Source: a virus. Taken from it: a stretch of DNA of 37,485 bases. Both the position numbers and the translations under genes were made by a program. The stretch lies in the IMG/VR virus record IMGVR_UViG_3300020450_000004, positions 1 to 37,485 of that record. One strand, written 5' to 3'. The notes beneath the pieces were generated by a model. It was not told the origin of the DNA and did no database searches. It saw only the letters and a list, made by a program, of their open reading frames with translations. Every line of letters begins with the position of its first letter. Within the stretch, counting starts at the first letter, position 1. Positions 3,001 to 37,485 of the stretch are shown in pieces.

Positions 3001-3732
3001 ATCTTCACCAAAAGCTACAAAGTCAGTTAATGCACCTAGTGTTATTGTTTTCCCAGCTTTAGCAAGTCTATTTGTGTAATCTGGAATCTTCGTTATTTTA
3101 TCCAGACCTTTATAACCTCCAATAAAAGTAACAATACCCTCTGCCATAGGAGAGAAAGAATTGTTATATTTATCTGGTGATAACGGTTCAAAAAAACCAG
3201 TCCATCTTGGAGCTTCTATTTTAAGAGCATCATCTAAACCTATAGTTCCAGTAATACCAGTTATTCCATAAGTTGGTGTATCTTTATCAGCTACGGCTTC
3301 ATCATAAGGAACATATTGTACAATCCCATTCTTAGCATCTTCACCGTATCTAAATCCACCTAGATTTGTCTTTTCTCCTAAAGTGTCACCTATATCCTCT
3401 AGCAATTCCACAGAAGAATTTATAAAGTTTCTAGAAGCATTGTAGGGAATCTTAGGTAAATCATATATTGTACCTAACATATTATTTCCAAAGTTAGCTA
3501 CACCATCTAAGAATCCACCACTTTGAACTTGTTTTAGTTCACCTAAATCTTTTTGCACTTCAGTTAAAAATATGTCTTCTCTAGGGTCTACATCTTCTTG
3601 CACATTCTCATTTACAGTTTCTGTACCTTGATTATCTTCTTGCTCTAGTGGAACTGTGTTTGTTGTTGAATCAATAGGGTTTCCATCATCATCAACTTTC
3701 ACAAGTTTTCCATCTATCATTTTGAACGGCAT
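1..3732 (-). CDS. Internal virion protein D (T7 gp16-like), N-terminal 1244 codons
   Basis: The ATG at 3732 is preceded by AAGGAG with good spacing. The frame is open for exactly 1244 codons to base 1 and continues through the circle join to the stop at 37061, giving about 1359 aa (T7 gp16 is 1318 aa). In T7 the last and largest core protein is ejected into the cell envelope and forms part of the DNA-ejection channel; that role is inferred from length and position after the gp13, gp14 and gp15 equivalents. Visible features are an acidic N-terminus, a long charged coiled-coil-like stretch around residues 300-480 and a hydrophobic patch near residues 950-970. I see no lytic transglycosylase motif at the N-terminus, where T7 gp16 has one. 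The region carries a promoter-like site at 3373-3392. Confidence 0.85.
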   Translation of the reverse strand, partial: MPFKMIDGKLVKVDDDGNPIDSTTNTVPLEQEDNQGTETVNENVQEDVDPREDIFLTEVQKDLGELKQVQSGGFLDGVANFGNNMLGTIYDLPKIPYNASRNFINSSVELLEDIGDTLGEKTNLGGFRYGEDAKNGIVQYVPYDEAVADKDTPTYGITGITGTIGLDDALKIEAPRWTGFFEPLSPDKYNNSFSPMAEGIVTFIGGYKGLDKITKIPDYTNRLAKAGKTITLGALTDFVAFGEDTGRLTDIIHQYNPDIEDTWLGYLVSKEDDTWWESRMKNAIEGAGLGVSSEAVFSVLRLFKKGNDVTSGKSTKQTYDEINDDIDNLKNLKEDIDNLKKGVNVDNLKSANKEVKENIKKQNIKAEAGKILNTKQAQIKSEQKSAIYEAIDNIPKTLNEQIDKYNKGEIDFDTAIELQDVFVNLKPYIKDKKLSKEGFVALKEAFNQVKKTMKSLNKVVTDDAVKRKAIQKYGNANNIDGLAKLVDDADALGKNTDDANATILALTSMNRTVAEQMISAFKKYKSGDKSALEEAEVLAGLMIQLVGNTKKVAKNFGRGVRSFGIEKQKINESGALFEDIQDLMKFSPDFNSNPKSFEIFMEKVASLGDKSSIEKVFEVVAGKKTWDIANEIWYNAVLFSPKTQFANFLGNIQGSVFPPIEKIIGGGAGKIWNRTKNIPLSIVHKHKKTISPDEAVKSKKKLTGKEMNDAEYEQIQKQVQEAKDEIVNLTSKIKLASRYAYQVLKSGKTIITNKNKLDKFDDSPVISSKIKEGDNIAKKVGKTAINVTGEVIRLPSRFMNSVDEFFVQINYRSRIETLAHRSARRGGLKEGTEEYTKAVNEYIEDSFDEFGAGLNREALGYANRGAYKNEMIGFFEKVSQAMDEYPILKQVFPFFRVTTNLATETIKRVPLIGLGTPTRAKAFFGNSPNLENVAEIRGQQILGTLIMSGAFFTFREGYLSGATGYKGDENFNYLKDYNRFLEKKSEENFTPFSVKIFDTQFELRQLPPAGALLGLVAEFSRVYDDLNDEDREEISAEIMELYMSQMGSNDKIPTEEIVGNRELPFETKFLNGIQAGVQAKKNVVVTQTFATRFAELGRAIEDNDGFEFKRLIQNHIASYVPNIIQKVSNDEFYRKSNSLLDSIRMKAGFGVDTVSPRIGSLFQELKDSDSDFERFIQRTINPTTMKKLKKGNVVYEAVKDTEGFLNSVKPNQIINGAEINLNEFTDSQGNSAFRTWSKTIREDT
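3373..3392 (-). promoter_or_regulatory. SP6-like phage promoter candidate inside internal virion protein D gene
   Basis: The minus strand reads TAGGTGACACTTTAGGAGAA. Its GTGACACTTTAGGAGAA part is identical over 17 nt to the intergenic site at 15271-15290, and the whole resembles the SP6 promoter core (GGTGACACTATAG). It also encodes part of the protein (residues Gly-Asp-Thr-Leu-Gly-Glu), so chance or codon constraint cannot be excluded. Confidence 0.4.
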
Positions 3733-3741
3733 ATTTTCTCC

Positions 3742-5925
3742 TTATTTAAAATTAGCAAGATTATCTTTTAAGAATTTAATTACTTCTGGTGGGAAACCAA
3801 ATGCTTGAGCAAGTTCTACAGTTACCACTGGTTTAATTATTTTATTTTGATATTTGTTTTCAAATTCTGATTCTGTAATAAATTCAAATCCAGTTGGATT
3901 ATCTATATTAGGACTTTCTTTATATAGAAGAACTAAATTATCTTTTCCAAAGTCAAAGGTCTTTTGTGTATTTCCAAAAGCTTTTTCTACTGCTTCTTTA
4001 AAGTTTTCATTTCTTGTTCCTACAAGTATATCACCACCTTTAACTAAATCAGTTCCTTTAGCTTTATTAGTTGTAGCATCAAAAGTATTTCCTACTAATT
4101 CTTCTTTGTCCTTTTTAATATTTTCTTTTGGTTCTGTTGTTACAAATTCACCAATATCTATTGGTCTAGTTTGTTCACTTCCAGAATCTCCGATAGTTTC
4201 TCCAGTAAATATATCTTGTAGACCTTTATATTTTAAAGTTTGCATTTCTGTTGAAACCCAGTCTTCAATAAACTTATTAAAGCCATCTTGTTTTTCTTTC
4301 ATTGTTTTTAGTTTTAAAGCTTCTTCTGATTGTAGCCATTTTTTTGCACTAAACTCTAAAGATGTAACAAACAACTCACCCATTCTCTTTATCTCAGTTC
4401 CATCAGCATAAGCATCTACAAGATTTTTAATAGTTTTCTTGTATATATTATAGTTGTTTAAGGAATCAGTATTTAATAAAAAGTTATTCTTAGGGTCTTG
4501 ATTAAATAATATTTTTGAATTGTTATTTCTAAAATCTTCAAGACTTATCTTATCTTCTGTAAAAGCTTTTTTATTTTTATCATAAGCAGTATTCAAGTCA
4601 TTTTCAAATATAGATTTAATTATAGACTTTTGTGTAGTTTCATCTGTTTCACCTACATTTTTTCTTTGATTTCTTATAAATTCTATTTCAAGAGTAGATT
4701 TATCTACTAGAGCATTAGGACTATATAAGTATTGATATCTCTCTTGTTCACTCATTGCATCAAACTTTTGTACAAGTGAATCAGTTGCAATGACATCTCT
4801 GCTTCTAATAGAAGTTGCTTTTGCATTTTGTTCTTTTGCTTGATTGTCTAATATTTTTGCTTTTTCTATCGATAAGAATTGAGTCATCTCGTCACTATCT
4901 ACAAATTTAGTACCGTCAACAAATTCTATTTTAGGCAAAATACTATCAATCATTCTTAATTGATTTTTGTAATCATTTGGATATTGTTCAATAAAATTTT
5001 GCAAAGAAGACTTAACAATGTTTTTTAACTTTGTTGGGTTCTTGTTGATACTATAGACTTCAGAAAGATTCGATTTTATATCTTGAGCTATATGCCAATC
5101 TGGATTGTCTTTGTCTTGATGTAATTTAAATGACCCAGCTAATATACTTGCAGTCTGACTGTTAAATTTATCTGTTGCTAGTTTTTGTACATTTTGAATA
5201 TAGCTATTTCTAATAGTATTATTTACTGAAGTAGTAGATTTAAAAAATGTTTCTTTTAATAGCTGAGGTGGAAAAGCATCTAAATTATTTTCAAAGAAAA
5301 AATCTTTTAGAATTCCTCTATACCATTTGTTGTAAGCTCCATCAGATACATCATTCTTAATACCATCTTCTTCAAATCTTCTGATTGCATAAGTAGAAAA
5401 TTCATTAAGACCTAAATTTTTAAGTTGAAGTTTGTTACTTACTAAATTGTAATATGGACTATCTGTTTCTTTTATCTCTTTATTTTTAACTTTATCAGCA
5501 AGTATATTTTTAAATTGGTTTCTTTCTTCTATTGCATTACTAACTGTACTTATAGAACTACCGTCAGCTTTTTTACCGTTAATGTTATTATTTAATGGTG
5601 TTACATCTATTTTAGATTTCTTTTCTTCTTTAGGTTTTTCCTCTGGTTTCTCTGTACCGTCACCAAAGTCTATATCTTCTCCTATTTCATATTCAATTTC
5701 AGCTTCTGCTTCTTCTTCTTTTCTTATTTTTTCTCTAGTTAAAATTGCATTTTTAGTAAGACCGTCACTAGCAAAATTTTCTAAAGCTTTTGTAAATTGT
5801 TCTAAACCTTGAGGTAATGGTTTTACTTGAGGTCTATAAAATAAATCAAAATCTCTAACCACTACTTGAGGAAGTTCTGGGTTCAGATTCAAGCTTGGAA
5901 GTTGGGGATTATTTCTTTTTGCCAT
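3742..5925 (-). CDS. Internal virion protein C (T7 gp15-like)
   Basis: A protein of 727 aa (T7 gp15 is 747 aa), placed between the gp14-like and gp16-like genes exactly as in T7. In T7 this protein forms part of the internal core and, after ejection, the periplasmic part of the DNA-translocation tube. The sequence is hydrophilic, has a Pro-rich N-terminus (about residues 8-45), an acidic Glu/Lys segment at about 70-110, and long helical charged stretches. There is no signal peptide or membrane segment. The start has AAGGA about 11 nt upstream. The call rests on size and order more than on a diagnostic motif. Confidence 0.8.
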   Translation of the reverse strand: MAKRNNPQLPSLNLNPELPQVVVRDFDLFYRPQVKPLPQGLEQFTKALENFASDGLTKNAILTREKIRKEEEAEAEIEYEIGEDIDFGDGTEKPEEKPKEEKKSKIDVTPLNNNINGKKADGSSISTVSNAIEERNQFKNILADKVKNKEIKETDSPYYNLVSNKLQLKNLGLNEFSTYAIRRFEEDGIKNDVSDGAYNKWYRGILKDFFFENNLDAFPPQLLKETFFKSTTSVNNTIRNSYIQNVQKLATDKFNSQTASILAGSFKLHQDKDNPDWHIAQDIKSNLSEVYSINKNPTKLKNIVKSSLQNFIEQYPNDYKNQLRMIDSILPKIEFVDGTKFVDSDEMTQFLSIEKAKILDNQAKEQNAKATSIRSRDVIATDSLVQKFDAMSEQERYQYLYSPNALVDKSTLEIEFIRNQRKNVGETDETTQKSIIKSIFENDLNTAYDKNKKAFTEDKISLEDFRNNNSKILFNQDPKNNFLLNTDSLNNYNIYKKTIKNLVDAYADGTEIKRMGELFVTSLEFSAKKWLQSEEALKLKTMKEKQDGFNKFIEDWVSTEMQTLKYKGLQDIFTGETIGDSGSEQTRPIDIGEFVTTEPKENIKKDKEELVGNTFDATTNKAKGTDLVKGGDILVGTRNENFKEAVEKAFGNTQKTFDFGKDNLVLLYKESPNIDNPTGFEFITESEFENKYQNKIIKPVVTVELAQAFGFPPEVIKFLKDNLANFK

Positions 5926-6501: not shown

Positions 6502-6974
6502 AATTTTGCAATCTCATAAAAAGGTTTATTTAATACTCCATAGTTAAGTTTTCTTATAAATTTAAAGCCACAAAACTTTAACCATTTAATATGTAATGTA
6601 TTTCTTGCATCTACATAGTTCCATAAAAGTGGATAAGTTTTGTGAAAGTTGTTGACCACTCCTCTACATTCTCTAAGAAATGGTATTGATATTTTTTCTA
6701 ATTCTGGTGTTGCTAAAAACCATATAGCTCCAAATACATTTACTCCAAAAATAGCAATAGGAATGTTTTGTACATTACAAATAGTAAAACATAAAGTAGA
6801 TTCAGATATTCCATTAGATATTGCCATAAGTGGAGTATTACCACTTGCACTGATAATTTCCCTTTTGTCCTCGTATCTAAGAGTCTTTGCAAGTATCTTA
6901 GCATCAGATAATTTTGAGAGTCTGAAGTAACCATAGTCTTCTACTCTTTTAGATATCTTGGCTTTGGGTGACAT
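6474..6974 (-). CDS. gp13-like internal virion protein A (GNAT-like, DUF2833 type)
   Basis: I chose the ATG at 6974 (166 aa) because GGAGG lies 6 nt upstream; the in-frame ATG at 6995 lacks a good site. The protein resembles the gp13/DUF2833 family of T7-like phages, which looks like an N-acetyltransferase fold: a central strand (ICNVQNIPIAIFGVN), a GAIWFLATPELE segment, and a C-terminal motif (LHIKWLKFCGFKFIR) as in GNAT proteins. In T7, gp13 is needed for normal virion assembly; no substrate can be named here. The gene overlaps the end of tail tubular protein B by 26 nt and precedes the gp14-like gene. Confidence 0.75.
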   Translation of the reverse strand: MSPKAKISKRVEDYGYFRLSKLSDAKILAKTLRYEDKREIISASGNTPLMAISNGISESTLCFTICNVQNIPIAIFGVNVFGAIWFLATPELEKISIPFLRECRGVVNNFHKTYPLLWNYVDARNTLHIKWLKFCGFKFIRKLNYGVLNKPFYEIAKLCVNQQQPY

Positions 6975-9327
6975 AATATCCCTCCCAATTTGCATTGATG
7001 AAATTACTAGGAAGATGCGAATTATTTTTTAGGACTATACTTAAATTATCGTTTCTTGATTGAACTGAAAATTTAAAATCTCCATCTTCAAGATTTACAG
7101 TACCAAGTAAACCAGCTCCAGTTATTGTTCCAGTGAATGTAGAAGAACTTGTATCTCTAGCTTTTGGTGTAACCTCAGTTTGAAAGAATCCAGTATTATT
7201 AAATGAAACACTCCAATTTCTTATTTGTAATCTTCCCTCTTTAACAGAAATTCTAGCTCCATTACTATCAGCTAGTTGTACAAATTGTTGAGAAAATTTA
7301 AATAAAAATTCATATTGTTCACCAACAAAGAATTTAAAATTTGTAATATCACCAGATACAGTAATTGAAGTTCCAGATTGTGTATTAGTTAGAATTTCTC
7401 TACCAGCTTTGTTTGTTCCACCAACCCTACCTACTACTTTCATAGTGTTATTAATTACATAAGGTAAAGTGATTGTAGTTATATTTGTAGCTGAATCATA
7501 ACTTTTTGTTACTTCAGTTTCTAATAATTTTCTATCTAAGTGAGTTAAGTAAGTAGCTCCAGTATCAACTCTAGCTGGTGACACATCAACCTTTTCTAGA
7601 TAAACACCGTCACTTCTTTCATTAACAATAATTAATGTGTTTTCTATAAAATCTATATTTAAAATATTATCTGTTGTAGCTAAACCGTAATCCCATTTAT
7701 GCCAAGCACTTTGTAATCTTTTCCCAGAAGATACATAATATTGATAAATATAAATACAGTTGGGTGAATCAGAACTTAATATTGCTAATATATTTTCATT
7801 TGTAGCTGAAGTAATTTTAAAAACATTTTTAGGTATAAATACTGGAACATTTGCAGTTATATCATCTGCTTGTTTTGTATCTGTGTCAGAAGCAATAAAA
7901 AACTCTCTCATACCAGTAAAGTCACCTTTAGGAAATGTAAAGAATACATTACTACCAGCACCTTTTGGTTTTGTTTGTCTATCAGCTTCAAATTCTGTAG
8001 CAACATTTATAGCTACATTAGAAGCAGTCAGAGTAGCTTCACCACTCATAATAAATTGTGTTTGGTCACTAAATAATAGTAGTTCTTCATCAAAAGAAAT
8101 GGCGTGTCTAAGTATAGAAACTTTTGTATGTGTACTAGCAATATCAATAGGGTCAGTGTCTAATAGTTGTGTTACAGTTTCTGGAAAGAAATCAAAGAAC
8201 TCTCCAGCTCTCGACATAATAACATTCTCATCTGACAAGAATCCTAGTCTGTTTCTATGAAAGAATAAGTCATTTAGTTTTCTACCTATAAAACTAGGAG
8301 TAGGAGCTGAGTCTTCGTCACCAGCTACTCTTTGACCATACTTAGGTGTTGTAAAATCAGTACCATCTACTTGATATGTTGTACCGTCTAATTGTGTAAA
8401 TCTAAAATTACCGTCAGCAGTTCTAATTAAAGAATGAGGTAATGTTGTTGGGTCTAAAGCAACTTGTATATCTGGTTTTACAGTTTCTTTCCAAACACCG
8501 TCACCATCTTGAAATTCTTCAAATTTAACATAGTAATTATCAAAAGTATTTCCAGCATCTCCAGTTACCTCAACAACCATATTGTTTATAGCTGGAGATG
8601 GTAAATCAGAAAAGTTTTGTACTGTATCTTTAACTACTTGAGAAGCATCATTTCCATAACCATCAGATGAAGAAACTGCTAGTGTTCCAGATGATTTTGT
8701 AATACCTATACTACCTACACCAATCTTGACTACAGTAACATCTGTTGGGGGACTACCTTGTATTGCTGAGAATAAATTATCTCTAATAGTTTCACCGTTA
8801 GTAGAACCTCCAGAAGTGTATTGAGTATTGTCTATTGTCAAACTATAACTAGCTGAACTAACTCCTTGTAAAACTGTATATACTGCTTGTTCTACTTTAG
8901 CTCCAGATGTAACTGTACTATCAAATTGAGGTACTTTTTGTTTATTTAATATAAAAGTAAAATCAGCAACTGTTGTTGCTACATAATCTTGTTTAGGGTT
9001 TGTAGCATCTAAATAATTTAAAGCACCAGTTTGTGCAACTACTGTTCTTTCTGTTCCATCAATTTCAAAAACTTTAATAGAATTAGCAGATATAGATATT
9101 ACATATCTTTCAGTAACATCTCTATTAATAGTATGAACAAAAGAATTAGCAAAACTTGTTGTTGATATTTTAGCAATATGTTTGCTTGGTGGTCTTTTCT
9201 TTAACCCCTCAACAACAGAACTAAAGCCATTAACTTGTTCATCAGCTTGTGACGGTAGTCTTAATATTTCTGGTTGTTGACTAACCCCTTGTACTAAGTT
9301 TGGAATTGTTCTTGATACTAAAGGCAT
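6949..9327 (-). CDS. Tail tubular protein B (T7 gp12-like nozzle)
   Basis: A protein of 792 aa (T7 gp12 is 794 aa). The N-terminus MPLVSRTIPNLVQGVSQQPE, followed by an EQVNGFSSVVEGLKKRPPSK segment, is the family signature. A second typical block is FFHRNRLGFLSDENVIMSRAGEFFDFFP near residue 355. The protein forms the distal tail nozzle through which DNA leaves the virion and to which fibres attach. Its start codon overlaps the stop of tail tubular protein A as TAATG, so the two are translationally coupled. Confidence 0.95.
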   Translation of the reverse strand: MPLVSRTIPNLVQGVSQQPEILRLPSQADEQVNGFSSVVEGLKKRPPSKHIAKISTTSFANSFVHTINRDVTERYVISISANSIKVFEIDGTERTVVAQTGALNYLDATNPKQDYVATTVADFTFILNKQKVPQFDSTVTSGAKVEQAVYTVLQGVSSASYSLTIDNTQYTSGGSTNGETIRDNLFSAIQGSPPTDVTVVKIGVGSIGITKSSGTLAVSSSDGYGNDASQVVKDTVQNFSDLPSPAINNMVVEVTGDAGNTFDNYYVKFEEFQDGDGVWKETVKPDIQVALDPTTLPHSLIRTADGNFRFTQLDGTTYQVDGTDFTTPKYGQRVAGDEDSAPTPSFIGRKLNDLFFHRNRLGFLSDENVIMSRAGEFFDFFPETVTQLLDTDPIDIASTHTKVSILRHAISFDEELLLFSDQTQFIMSGEATLTASNVAINVATEFEADRQTKPKGAGSNVFFTFPKGDFTGMREFFIASDTDTKQADDITANVPVFIPKNVFKITSATNENILAILSSDSPNCIYIYQYYVSSGKRLQSAWHKWDYGLATTDNILNIDFIENTLIIVNERSDGVYLEKVDVSPARVDTGATYLTHLDRKLLETEVTKSYDSATNITTITLPYVINNTMKVVGRVGGTNKAGREILTNTQSGTSITVSGDITNFKFFVGEQYEFLFKFSQQFVQLADSNGARISVKEGRLQIRNWSVSFNNTGFFQTEVTPKARDTSSSTFTGTITGAGLLGTVNLEDGDFKFSVQSRNDNLSIVLKNNSHLPSNFINANWEGYYVTQSQDI

Positions 9328-15270: not shown

Positions 15271-15290
15271 GTTCTCCTAAAGTGTCACTT
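15271..15290 (-). promoter_or_regulatory. SP6-like phage RNA polymerase promoter for the virion block
   Basis: The minus strand reads AAGTGACACTTTAGGAGAAC. It shares AAGTGACACT and AG with the site at 21761-21780 and GTGACACT with the SP6 promoter. It touches the stop of the DUF6378-like gene and precedes the whole structural operon. Transcription would start at or near the G of TTTAG, making a very short leader with the ribosome site inside it. Confidence 0.7.
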
Positions 15291-21760: not shown

Positions 21761-21780
21761 GTATATCTATAGTGTCACTT
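21761..21780 (-). promoter_or_regulatory. SP6-like phage RNA polymerase promoter for the replication block
   Basis: The minus strand reads AAGTGACACTATAGATATAC. The core GTGACACTATAG is identical to that of the Salmonella phage SP6 promoter. It overlaps the stop codon of the RNA polymerase gene and lies 23 nt before the SSB start codon. This is the strongest member of the family in this genome. Confidence 0.85.
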
Positions 21781-23453
21781 TATATGCAGAAGAACTCAGA
21801 TTGCAGAACATCATCTAATTTAAGAGTACCTTGCTTTGGCATCTCTGGAAATCTTTTCTTGTTCTTATCACTAAGCATATCATACATATAAGTAGACCAT
21901 TGTTTCAGCAAATCTTCTGAGTACAAATCAATAAAAGATTCTCTTAAAGATTTTGCCATTATGTGATAGTCACTAGCAACAACACCAAATGAATCGTGTA
22001 TAATACTAAAACTATCAACACCTCTTTCACTTGCCATAACTACTGACTTCATAAGAAGACAAGCATCTATGGAATGAATTAGATTAGGAGCTACTGATTG
22101 TGCCGTAGCTCTGGGACAAATATTTTTTGTTTCTCTTTGTATAGAAACTTTAATAATACTATCACCCATTTTTGTTTTAACTCTTTTGTTTTCCATTTTA
22201 TAATTTAACATTTGAACTGGAGCATTCAGTGGAGTTATCCAAGTCACTGGTAAATTTTCTGAAGCAACTAATCTAGAAATTGTTTGCACATACTTCATAA
22301 CTTTCCTAGCTCCCACAACAATCTCACCAATACTATCCCAAACTATTGGTGTTAAATATTGTGTAGCTTTGAATAAATTATCATTGAATGGGTTTATTTT
22401 ACCTTTTTCTTTTTGTTGTTTAAGAACTTCATCTTCTAAATATTGTCTACAACTATACTTGGTAAGACCATAAGGTAAACACATTGTAGATTTCTTACAT
22501 ATCTTTCTATCGATACCCCAAGCTAACCAAAGAGAAGCTATCTTTTCACTTTTCTTTTTTAACAATTTAGCTTTTACTTTCTCTGCAATCATTCCATAAA
22601 CATCTTGAGGTTTACTATCTGGTATTAGGTTTGTTGCTTTACCACCAATCTCATCTCTTAACATAGCTGAGTAATGTTGAAGTCCACTGTTACTACAATC
22701 AGCTTGTATTGGTATTGATGAAATAAATTGTAATGAAAATTTTTCTTCAGCTAATTTTTTATATTCATTACACCAAGAATAAAAAGCAAAAGGTTTATCA
22801 GCAGAAGACCACCAGTTATCTTCAAGTGGATTCTTTGCCGTTGATATAATTCTTTGCTCATTATCATCAACCCATTTAAGTCTTGTATCTAAATCTTCTT
22901 TATCTGTTTCACCGTACAACCCAGCTCCAGCAATTTTTAATCTGTTTAATGCTTCCTCAGTTTTTAATCTTTTACCATATTTAAAAGTTAACAATGTCCT
23001 AGACCAATCAGCTCCTTGAGGATTTAACAAAGCTGGTTTAGGGTAGATTCTCCATCTAAAATCATATTGATGTGGGAAGTAACAACTCTTGTTCAGTAAC
23101 TTACTAGCTATCTGCATTATCTGATGGACTTGAATAAACTTAGATACTTCTTTATGTCTTTGTTTATAACAGTTGTTAGCTTTTCTTTTCCAATCTTTAA
23201 GAGCTTCCCTATCATTTTTTAAATCACCAATCTTAGGTGGTAACTCTATTGTGTCTGGATTCACTGGAAGATTGCCTAGTCTATAATTGTTTTTAAGACA
23301 AGTATGTATCAGTTTGTAAACATCTTGATTTATTATCCATTCAGTATTCTGAATTGTATTGATAGCTTTAAATATGATTGGCATAGAACCACTCATATTA
23401 TTAGCTTCTTCAAGTATGTTTCTTGTTCTTGTCTTTTGGAGATTGTAGTGCAT
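21780..23453 (-). CDS. Single-subunit RNA polymerase, C-terminal polymerase part (split gene)
   Basis: From the ATG at 23453 this gives 557 aa and contains the whole catalytic domain of a T7-type polymerase. Visible matches to T7 are D252 in IQADCSNSG (T7 Asp537), R316, K320 and Y328 in RKICKKSTMCLPYG (Arg627, Lys631, Tyr639) and H486-D487 in SIIHDSFG (His811-Asp812). The C-terminus DDVLQSEFFCI matches the T7 end (DILESDFAFA). AAGGA lies 8 nt before this ATG. The frame stays open upstream to 23513, overlapping the N-terminal ORF in the +1 frame. Either it is a separate subunit, or it is joined by +1 frameshift, or the split is a sequence error. It transcribes middle and late phage genes. Confidence 0.93.
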   Translation of the reverse strand: MHYNLQKTRTRNILEEANNMSGSMPIIFKAINTIQNTEWIINQDVYKLIHTCLKNNYRLGNLPVNPDTIELPPKIGDLKNDREALKDWKRKANNCYKQRHKEVSKFIQVHQIMQIASKLLNKSCYFPHQYDFRWRIYPKPALLNPQGADWSRTLLTFKYGKRLKTEEALNRLKIAGAGLYGETDKEDLDTRLKWVDDNEQRIISTAKNPLEDNWWSSADKPFAFYSWCNEYKKLAEEKFSLQFISSIPIQADCSNSGLQHYSAMLRDEIGGKATNLIPDSKPQDVYGMIAEKVKAKLLKKKSEKIASLWLAWGIDRKICKKSTMCLPYGLTKYSCRQYLEDEVLKQQKEKGKINPFNDNLFKATQYLTPIVWDSIGEIVVGARKVMKYVQTISRLVASENLPVTWITPLNAPVQMLNYKMENKRVKTKMGDSIIKVSIQRETKNICPRATAQSVAPNLIHSIDACLLMKSVVMASERGVDSFSIIHDSFGVVASDYHIMAKSLRESFIDLYSEDLLKQWSTYMYDMLSDKNKKRFPEMPKQGTLKLDDVLQSEFFCI

Positions 23454-24402
23454 TTGATATTTCCTTGAGGTTATTATTTTTATTATACTTTTTGCCGTAA
23501 TAACCACCATCAAAAAAGTTTGACCATTCTCTTGGTGGCATCAGCATTGGCATAAACTCTGGGTGTAATGCTTCATTAGACATATTGAAACTTTGAATAT
23601 CTTTTATTAATTTATTTGTAGCTTCAACATATTTAATTGATTTATTTCTTGCTACTTTTCTTGTGTTAGTTGTAACAAGACCTAATATACTTACAAGCTC
23701 GATACACTTTGTACCTAAATGAACTCTTTCTATCTTGTCCCATTTAGCAAACTCAAGATTAGCTTTGTTCATATAATAAACCCAAACATTTTTCTTGTAG
23801 ACATATTTGTTTTCAGTTAGGGGAATAGACTTAGAGCTACTCATTCTCTTTGCTATTTGTCTAAAACCTTTTGTGTCCTTGTTTTGAAATAATGTGATTC
23901 TTGCTTCCATCTCCAAACTATTTGCAATCTTAACTGACAATCTATTTAATGTTTGCCTATGAGATATACCGTCAATACAAGATTTTAATATAATTAAACT
24001 ACAGTTATCCCACTTGCTTGTATCATCTGACTTTAATTTTTTTGCATCAAAATATTTAGACTCTAAACATTGGCATATCAATTTAGAAGCAATTTGGTGT
24101 CTACCAGCTTCTCCACTAAGTGCTATCTTTATCCAATCATTTATTTGTTGACTGAGTATTGATACATATTTTTGTAGTAATAATATTCCAATAAGTGTTG
24201 TTGATTCTTGTTGTTTTGCTAAAGCATTTTTCCAAGTTCTTTGTGACCTATCGATACCACCCCTTAACATTTTGTCTTCCCAATCAAGTTCTTCTTGAAC
24301 TCTTTGAGTGTAATCATTTTTATCTTTAAACTTACCACCAACACCAACTCTTAAAAGTTCTGCCAGATGTTCATCTAAATCATCAAGATTGTGTCTTATC
24401 AT
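23410..24402 (-). CDS. Single-subunit RNA polymerase, N-terminal domain (split gene)
   Basis: A protein of 330 aa covering the T7 RNA polymerase N-terminal domain, which binds promoter and nascent RNA. Recognisable blocks are an ETQxR-like QRTWKNALAKQQESTT segment, GRHQIASKLI near residue 100, and the end block EFMPMLMPPREW then FDGGYYGKKYN, matching VVPPKPW and GGGYW of T7. It ends at 23410 in the wrong frame for the catalytic part. With a +1 shift near 23433-23493 the fused protein would be about 873 aa, against 883 in T7. AAGGAG precedes the ATG. The break lies near the T7 N-domain/polymerase boundary. Confidence 0.9.
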   Translation of the reverse strand: MIRHNLDDLDEHLAELLRVGVGGKFKDKNDYTQRVQEELDWEDKMLRGGIDRSQRTWKNALAKQQESTTLIGILLLQKYVSILSQQINDWIKIALSGEAGRHQIASKLICQCLESKYFDAKKLKSDDTSKWDNCSLIILKSCIDGISHRQTLNRLSVKIANSLEMEARITLFQNKDTKGFRQIAKRMSSSKSIPLTENKYVYKKNVWVYYMNKANLEFAKWDKIERVHLGTKCIELVSILGLVTTNTRKVARNKSIKYVEATNKLIKDIQSFNMSNEALHPEFMPMLMPPREWSNFFDGGYYGKKYNKNNNLKEISNALQSPKDKNKKHT

Positions 24403-29402: not shown

Positions 29403-29422
29403 GTATTCCTATAGTGGAACTT
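29403..29422 (-). promoter_or_regulatory. SP6-like phage promoter before the last two genes
   Basis: The minus strand reads AAGTTCCACTATAGGAATAC. It shares AAGT, CACTATAG and ATAC with the site at 21761-21780. It begins 3 nt after the stop of the 67-aa gene and drives two small genes, and perhaps transcription into the non-coding region of a circular or concatemeric template. Confidence 0.75.
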
Positions 29423-37060: not shown

Positions 37061-37485
37061 TTAAAAGTTTTGCAGTTTTTCTAATTTTTTAAGTGAACTT
37101 GATGGAATTGCATTTTTATTTTCTCTTTTAAAAATACCCTCAAGTATTTCATTTTCCATTGTAAATTCATAAAGTGTTTTACTATTTCCATCTTCATCAA
37201 TTATTTCAAAGTCATCTCTATAATTTTTGTAGAAGATATCAGTTCCTTTATCTTTGAATCTGTTAATTTCTTTTTGTAACAAATCAATTTTATTCTCACC
37301 CTTATTCACTACTTGACCATTTATAGTTAATTGTTCAGAAGCATTTTTATATTTATTAGAATTAATAAATTTTTCTAAATGTTGCATAAGAGTTCTACCA
37401 CCAATTTTAGTGTCTTCTCTTATAGTCTTTGACCAAGTTCTAAAAGCACTGTTGCCTTGAGAGTCTGTAAATTCATTTAGATTTA
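37061..37485 (-). CDS. Internal virion protein D (T7 gp16-like), C-terminal part
   Basis: This is the end of the gene that runs off base 1; the frame joins at 37408/1 because 37409-37485 repeats 1-77. In the closed circle this part supplies the last 115 residues and the stop. It is hydrophilic and charged, ending SSSLKKLEKLQNF. The tail fibre gene starts 12 nt after the stop. The ATG at 37387 is internal and not a real start. Confidence 0.85.
   Translation of the reverse strand, partial: NLNEFTDSQGNSAFRTWSKTIREDTKIGGRTLMQHLEKFINSNKYKNASEQLTINGQVVNKGENKIDLLQKEINRFKDKGTDIFYKNYRDDFEIIDEDGNSKTLYEFTMENEILEGIFKRENKNAIPSSSLKKLEKLQNF
37409..37485. repeat. Terminal direct repeat, copy 2
   Basis: Identical over all 77 bases to 1-77. 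It shows the contig is circular with a unit of 37,408 bp. Confidence 0.95.

Follow-up and report, generated by a model that had tools for sequence, protein, structure and literature searches.

The window, by which we mean the whole stretch of DNA analysed and at the same time the whole record of an ocean virus, 37,485 bases long, encodes a T7-like RNA polymerase in two genes on the minus strand that overlap in different frames. The features of the locus, and the promoter-like elements considered with it, are as follows.

23410..24402 (-): N-terminal subunit gene of the RNA polymerase, 330 aa, corresponding to T7 residues ~17-290
21780..23453 (-): catalytic subunit gene of the RNA polymerase, 557 aa from ATG 23453, corresponding to T7 residues ~296-883
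23410..23453 (-): 44-nt overlap of the N and catalytic genes in different frames, also present in the relatives L009 and L011
23462..23466 (-): Shine-Dalgarno-like AAGGA, 8 nt upstream of ATG 23453
23442..23453 (-): start of the catalytic gene, ATGCACTACAAT (M-H-Y-N), kept across the split clade
21767..21779 (-): SP6/T7-type promoter-like element AGTGACACTATAG, directly after the catalytic gene and before the SSB gene
15277..15289 (-): second promoter-like element AGTGACACTTTAG, with a similar one in HTVC041P and HTVC011P
29409..29421 (-): third promoter-like element AGTTCCACTATAG, with a similar one in HTVC041P and HTVC011P
3378..3390 (-): fourth promoter-like element GGTGACACTTTAG, with a similar one in HTVC041P and HTVC011P

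The coordinates and frames of the original prediction (N ORF 24402..23410 on the minus strand, 330 aa, with the catalytic ORF in another frame) were confirmed, as was the ATG at 23453 with AAGGA (23466-23462) 8 nt upstream. The prediction had let the catalytic ORF begin at 23513, and the frame, which differs from that of the N ORF and ends at 21780 (-), does stay open up to a TTG at 23513. However, in L009 and L011, two close relatives sharing the same 44-nt overlap, a stop codon in the catalytic frame lies just 5' of the ATG; we therefore take ATG 23453 as the true start, giving a product of 557 aa, and reject the 577-aa product that would begin at the TTG.

Searches against Pfam assigned RPOL_N (PF14700, E 4.9e-14) to the N ORF and RNA_pol (PF00940, E 3.8e-92) to the catalytic ORF. 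Along the 816 positions of PHROG 414, the N protein matches 3-267 and the catalytic protein 262-814, a nearly gapless coverage; because the two matches abut, no part of the enzyme is absent or duplicated at the cut. The expected equivalents of T7 D537, K631, Y639, H811 and D812 are all found in the catalytic subunit, as D252, K320, Y328, H486 and D487. With these residues, the RPOL_N and RNA_pol domains and a T7 fold, the polymerase belongs to the T7-like (single-subunit family) RNA polymerases, although it is not the single polypeptide that is the usual form of this family. A single chain does not define the family; N4 RNAPII, an accepted member, is also without one.

Both halves are predicted to adopt T7-like folds. 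The model of the catalytic subunit (pLDDT 89) matches residues 297-883 of T7 RNA polymerase (Z 42.1, 512 residues, rmsd 2.5). The N subunit model, which is moderately confident (pLDDT 72) and does not resolve the C-terminal tail 298-330, matches the T7 N-domain at ~17-268 (Z 18.7, 240 residues). The structure match and the sequence alignment place the cut between the conserved GGY motif (T7 ~287-289) and T7 ~296, and not close to T7 ~325, where it had been expected.

The split polymerases also carry motifs of their own. Motif A, which is D-G-S-C-S-G in T7, is D-C-[S/T]-N-S-G in the 15 split sequences aligned; in these, the residue corresponding to T7 R632 is K, as it is in SP6, and the C-terminal F-A is replaced by C-[I/V/S], whereas all six aligned intact relatives keep G538, C540, R632 and the terminal FA. 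In the window, motif A is DCSNSG (residues 252-257 of the catalytic subunit) and the C-terminus is FFCI, ending at 556-557. The Gly of DxxGR is relaxed, being W in the window, and SP6 has S there.

In its gene order (integrase, RNA polymerase, SSB, endonuclease I, lysozyme/amidase, primase) the window agrees with the Stopavirus/Fussvirus pelagiphages, and from these relatives we infer a SAR11-type bacterium as the host. The integrase adjoins the polymerase (PF00589, E 6.5e-15). HTVC019Pvirus group III is characterized by a temperate gene set with the integrase beside the RNA polymerase, and a phage tRNA-Leu has been reported for some of its members; searches for tRNAs and RNA families found none in the window. 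A 77-bp direct repeat occupies both ends (1-77 and 37409-37485), so that the genome is probably complete and circularly permuted.

Is the split a property of this record or of a lineage? The prediction had called for a search for the same split in related phages, and scans of IMG/VR and bacterial genomes together with annotated phages yielded 97 non-redundant loci with the same cut, from isolates (HTVC041P, HTVC025P and EXVC018P among them), IMG/VR contigs and SAR11 single-cell genomes. The window shares with the split polymerases of HTVC019Pvirus group III the two ORFs, the break near T7 296 and the start ATGCAYTAYAAT. Three IMG/VR relatives of 83-86% identity have the junction exactly as in the window. 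Across the split loci the catalytic gene begins at a conserved start of its own, ATGCAYTAYAAT, with M1 invariant and H2, Y3 and N4 each conserved in at least 90% of 59 sequences, and a Shine-Dalgarno-like sequence of the GGAG-, AGGA- or GAGG-type precedes nearly all aligned catalytic starts in the relatives. The N gene adjoins the catalytic gene in every locus whose contig extends far enough upstream. Closely similar split polymerases were also seen on SAR11 single-cell genome contigs that are mostly long (L091-L096, L102) and are possibly prophages.

The junction itself varies, from a 44 nt overlap to a 497 nt gap and through all three relative frames. Frame +1 junctions have overlaps of 11, 20, 29, 32 and 44 nt or a gap of 1 nt, frame +2 junctions an overlap of 1 nt or gaps of 5, 131 (L083) and 497 nt, and frame 0 junctions, which contain a stop codon, gaps of 3 and 9 nt. 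In HTVC025P (L006), two small ORFs lie between the polymerase halves (7291-7691). The varied spacing, the three frames and these intervening genes mean that no single frameshift signal or base error explains the split, while independent translation can. As judged from these comparisons, the split is genuine and old, and it is kept across one clade of phages of SAR11-type bacteria.

These observations bear directly on the two alternatives to a genuine two-subunit polymerase that the original prediction had left standing. One is a programmed +1 ribosomal frameshift in the overlap, by which a single fused polymerase would be made and the separate ORFs would be merely apparent. In the window, the catalytic frame is indeed +1 relative to N, the frames overlap over ~100 nt, and AAAAG at 23437-23433 could serve as a slip site. 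A programmed frameshift would nevertheless come with a fixed frame relation and a conserved slippery site, and among the split loci we found three frame relations and gaps of up to 497 nt, so that relatives would need different shifts (+1, +2, or 0 with a stop). The in-frame stop just before the ATG in L009 and L011, the two intervening genes of HTVC025P and the conservation of the ATGCAYTAYAAT start throughout the clade speak against it as well, and we consider this explanation very improbable and have rejected it. Least probable of all is a sequencing or assembly error, that is, an extra base in an A-run of an intact gene. There are A-runs near the junction and the ORF of HTVC011P is intact, but the exact 44-nt overlap is shared by relatives of 83-86% identity, dozens of independent genomes are split, be they cultured isolates, IMG/VR contigs or single-cell genomes, and in Chen et al. 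2019 (PMC6811365) read mapping found no unsplit version in uv-Fonsiphage-EPL. A mixed case, in which two subunits predominate and occasional slippage or readthrough adds a small functional share of fused protein, would be permitted in some members by the short overlaps and by the two in-frame stop-ATG junctions, and the fused form of HTVC011P is evidently tolerated; lacking a conserved signal and impossible in HTVC025P, it appears hardly more probable than the programmed frameshift.

We built a FastTree tree of 114 concatenated sequences including 27 intact relatives. The split polymerases and HTVC011P form one clade with a support of 1.0 against these intact relatives, and the gene was therefore probably split once. 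HTVC011P (L002, KC465900) is the sole intact member of this clade among ~100 and is nested at a tip beside the split loci L018-L021, to which it is 98.5-99.2% identical over 2.6 kb. It differs from these split near-twins at the junction by a single base, at about position 6937 of KC465900. Over 12.5 kb of comparison with L181, only two indels were found: that at the junction and a second one near 4322, where an annotated gene ends. In IMG/VR, no contig carries the fused junction of HTVC011P, and 14 contigs carry the split version of the same junction. Because the record does not abound in indel errors, and one arising at random would need to land within a stretch of a few dozen bases, a late re-fusion in HTVC011P seems more likely than an error in its record. 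An intact ORF in a relative that lacks one base had been named in advance as the observation that would speak for an error in the window; such a relative does exist, but as the sole case and nested inside the split clade it points to late re-fusion instead. The fused gene of HTVC011P also implies that being split is not strictly required.

Does the N subunit still matter to the enzyme? The catalytic subunit might act alone or with another partner, N being a remnant that is decaying or has taken on another role. In favour of this, divergence is faster in the N domain than in the catalytic part, and N4 RNAPII functions with a very small N domain (PMC4496689). Against this, N stands beside the catalytic gene wherever the contig reaches far enough upstream, its predicted fold resembles T7 17-268, and the catalytic subunit begins where N ends, with no domain lost. 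N is, moreover, under strong purifying selection: pN/pS relative to L009 is 0.17 for the N gene and 0.18 for the catalytic gene, and overall 0.05-0.22 for both halves and 0.05-0.17 for N, with one nearly identical N pair set aside. We therefore regard a remnant as improbable, if less so than the readings discussed above. The divergence of N and of the catalytic part is tightly correlated (r = 0.976 over 3741 pairs), which is expected for partners, yet also from shared history alone.

In two comparisons (L041 vs L072/L063/L066, and L105 vs L107), sequence identity changes abruptly ~300-450 nt into the catalytic gene, which looks as if N and the first 100-150 residues of the catalytic subunit moved together in recombination, unless these are assembly chimeras. 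Reassortment of N and catalytic genes at the cut, considered as a reason for the split, gains no support, because the breakpoints of both discordant cases lie within the catalytic gene.

The SP6-like sequence AAGTGACACTATAG at 21767-21779 has a related sequence in the same place in most split relatives. From the sites in the window and its relatives we built the degenerate pattern RGTKMCACTWTAG, which matches the window exactly at four sites, each of them on the gene strand. Tolerating one mismatch raises the number to five, compared with 0.9 expected by chance, and none of the shuffles reached five, an enrichment that is flattering because the pattern was derived from the very sites counted. 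Independent support comes from HTVC041P and HTVC011P, in which related sites lie behind the RNA polymerase gene and in three other similar contexts. These sites suggest that the enzyme retains specific promoter recognition. Just 5' of the promoter-like element, many relatives (e.g. L018, L061) have a TGCAC-N2-GTGCA-like palindrome, maybe a terminator or operator.

We propose that the two subunits are translated separately and then come together as one T7-like polymerase with promoter specificity, a reading to which we assign a probability of roughly 0.88. A single operon transcript would carry both genes, and translation of the catalytic gene, probably coupled to that of N, would start from a Shine-Dalgarno sequence and an ATG of its own, which lie within the 3' end of the N gene. 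By homology with T7, the N protein would make the upstream contact with the promoter, open it and serve in RNA exit, and the catalytic protein would supply the thumb, palm, fingers and specificity loop. The two would join non-covalently to an enzyme equivalent to T7 RNA polymerase cut at ~296, which would transcribe the phage genes from SP6/T7-like promoters. At the level of sequence, this proposal builds on two conserved genes, their separate start signals, clade-wide retention, purifying selection on both and the T7-like folds predicted from them; physical assembly, activity, promoter use and translation coupling we infer. We further speculate, as a rather unlikely extension, that the separate N subunit is a removable factor for promoter recognition and opening and that, through its supply or binding, it controls the polymerase of these temperate phages, e.g. 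keeping it off in lysogeny. If true, the clade would hold a phage transcription switch that is natural, has two components and differs from N4 RNAPII.

The fragmentation itself has been seen before. Chen et al. 2019 reported that the RNA polymerase genes of group III HTVC019Pvirus are in two parts, HTVC011P excepted, and that this is not recent (PMC6811365); the group III split polymerases include those of HTVC025P, S30-C28-type phages and uv-Fonsiphage-EPL (PMC6811365), and also those of HTVC041P and EXVC018P in GenBank. The present finding is therefore not a first sighting. The window has the same gene order and the same split as group III, but its catalytic part is only ~52-56% identical and its overlap is longer (44 nt). 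The accessible part of Chen et al. 2019 (PMC6811365) speaks of a "fragmented" gene, without a break site, translation signals, a subunit model or an explanation of HTVC011P, and in the portions available of other literature on pelagiphages we found no discussion of the split. Added here are the position of the break, the signals for translation, the single origin, the near-identical fused and split pair, the contrast with N4 and the promoter-like sites.

The N4 RNAPII of Schitoviridae is a heterodimeric RNA polymerase with the cofactors gp1 and gp2. The parallel with N4 drawn in the original prediction holds for the number of genes, two genes encoding one T7-like polymerase (gp15 + gp16, PDB 6DT7), but not for the place of the break. 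In N4 the break follows the thumb and DxxGR, both of which gp15 carries (PMC4496689); gp16 (6dt7_B) aligns to residues 165-557 of the catalytic subunit and the end of gp15 (6dt7_A) to 93-158. The window polymerase is not broken between thumb/DxxGR and palm; its break lies ~160 residues earlier and leaves an N domain of nearly full size. T7 and SP6 RNA polymerase share its domains and catalytic residues, and the window contains an SP6-like promoter element, but these enzymes are one chain. T7 RNA polymerase has also been cut by design in surface seams, and the fragments were expressed and active (Segall-Shapiro et al. 2014, PMC4299498). That split is artificial, and in the portions available of the literature on the positions of its five seams we found no residue near 296.

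In the literature covered, N4-like phages are the only ones in which natural T7-family polymerases of two subunits have been studied. The polymerase described here would represent a second lineage with another break site, spread over a whole clade, with very abundant ocean bacteria as hosts and apparently re-fused once. It would be a natural counterpart to the engineered split T7 polymerases, and it calls for caution, as annotation may read such split genes as broken. The occurrence of the split and the fused enzyme in near-identical backgrounds offers a testable natural comparison.
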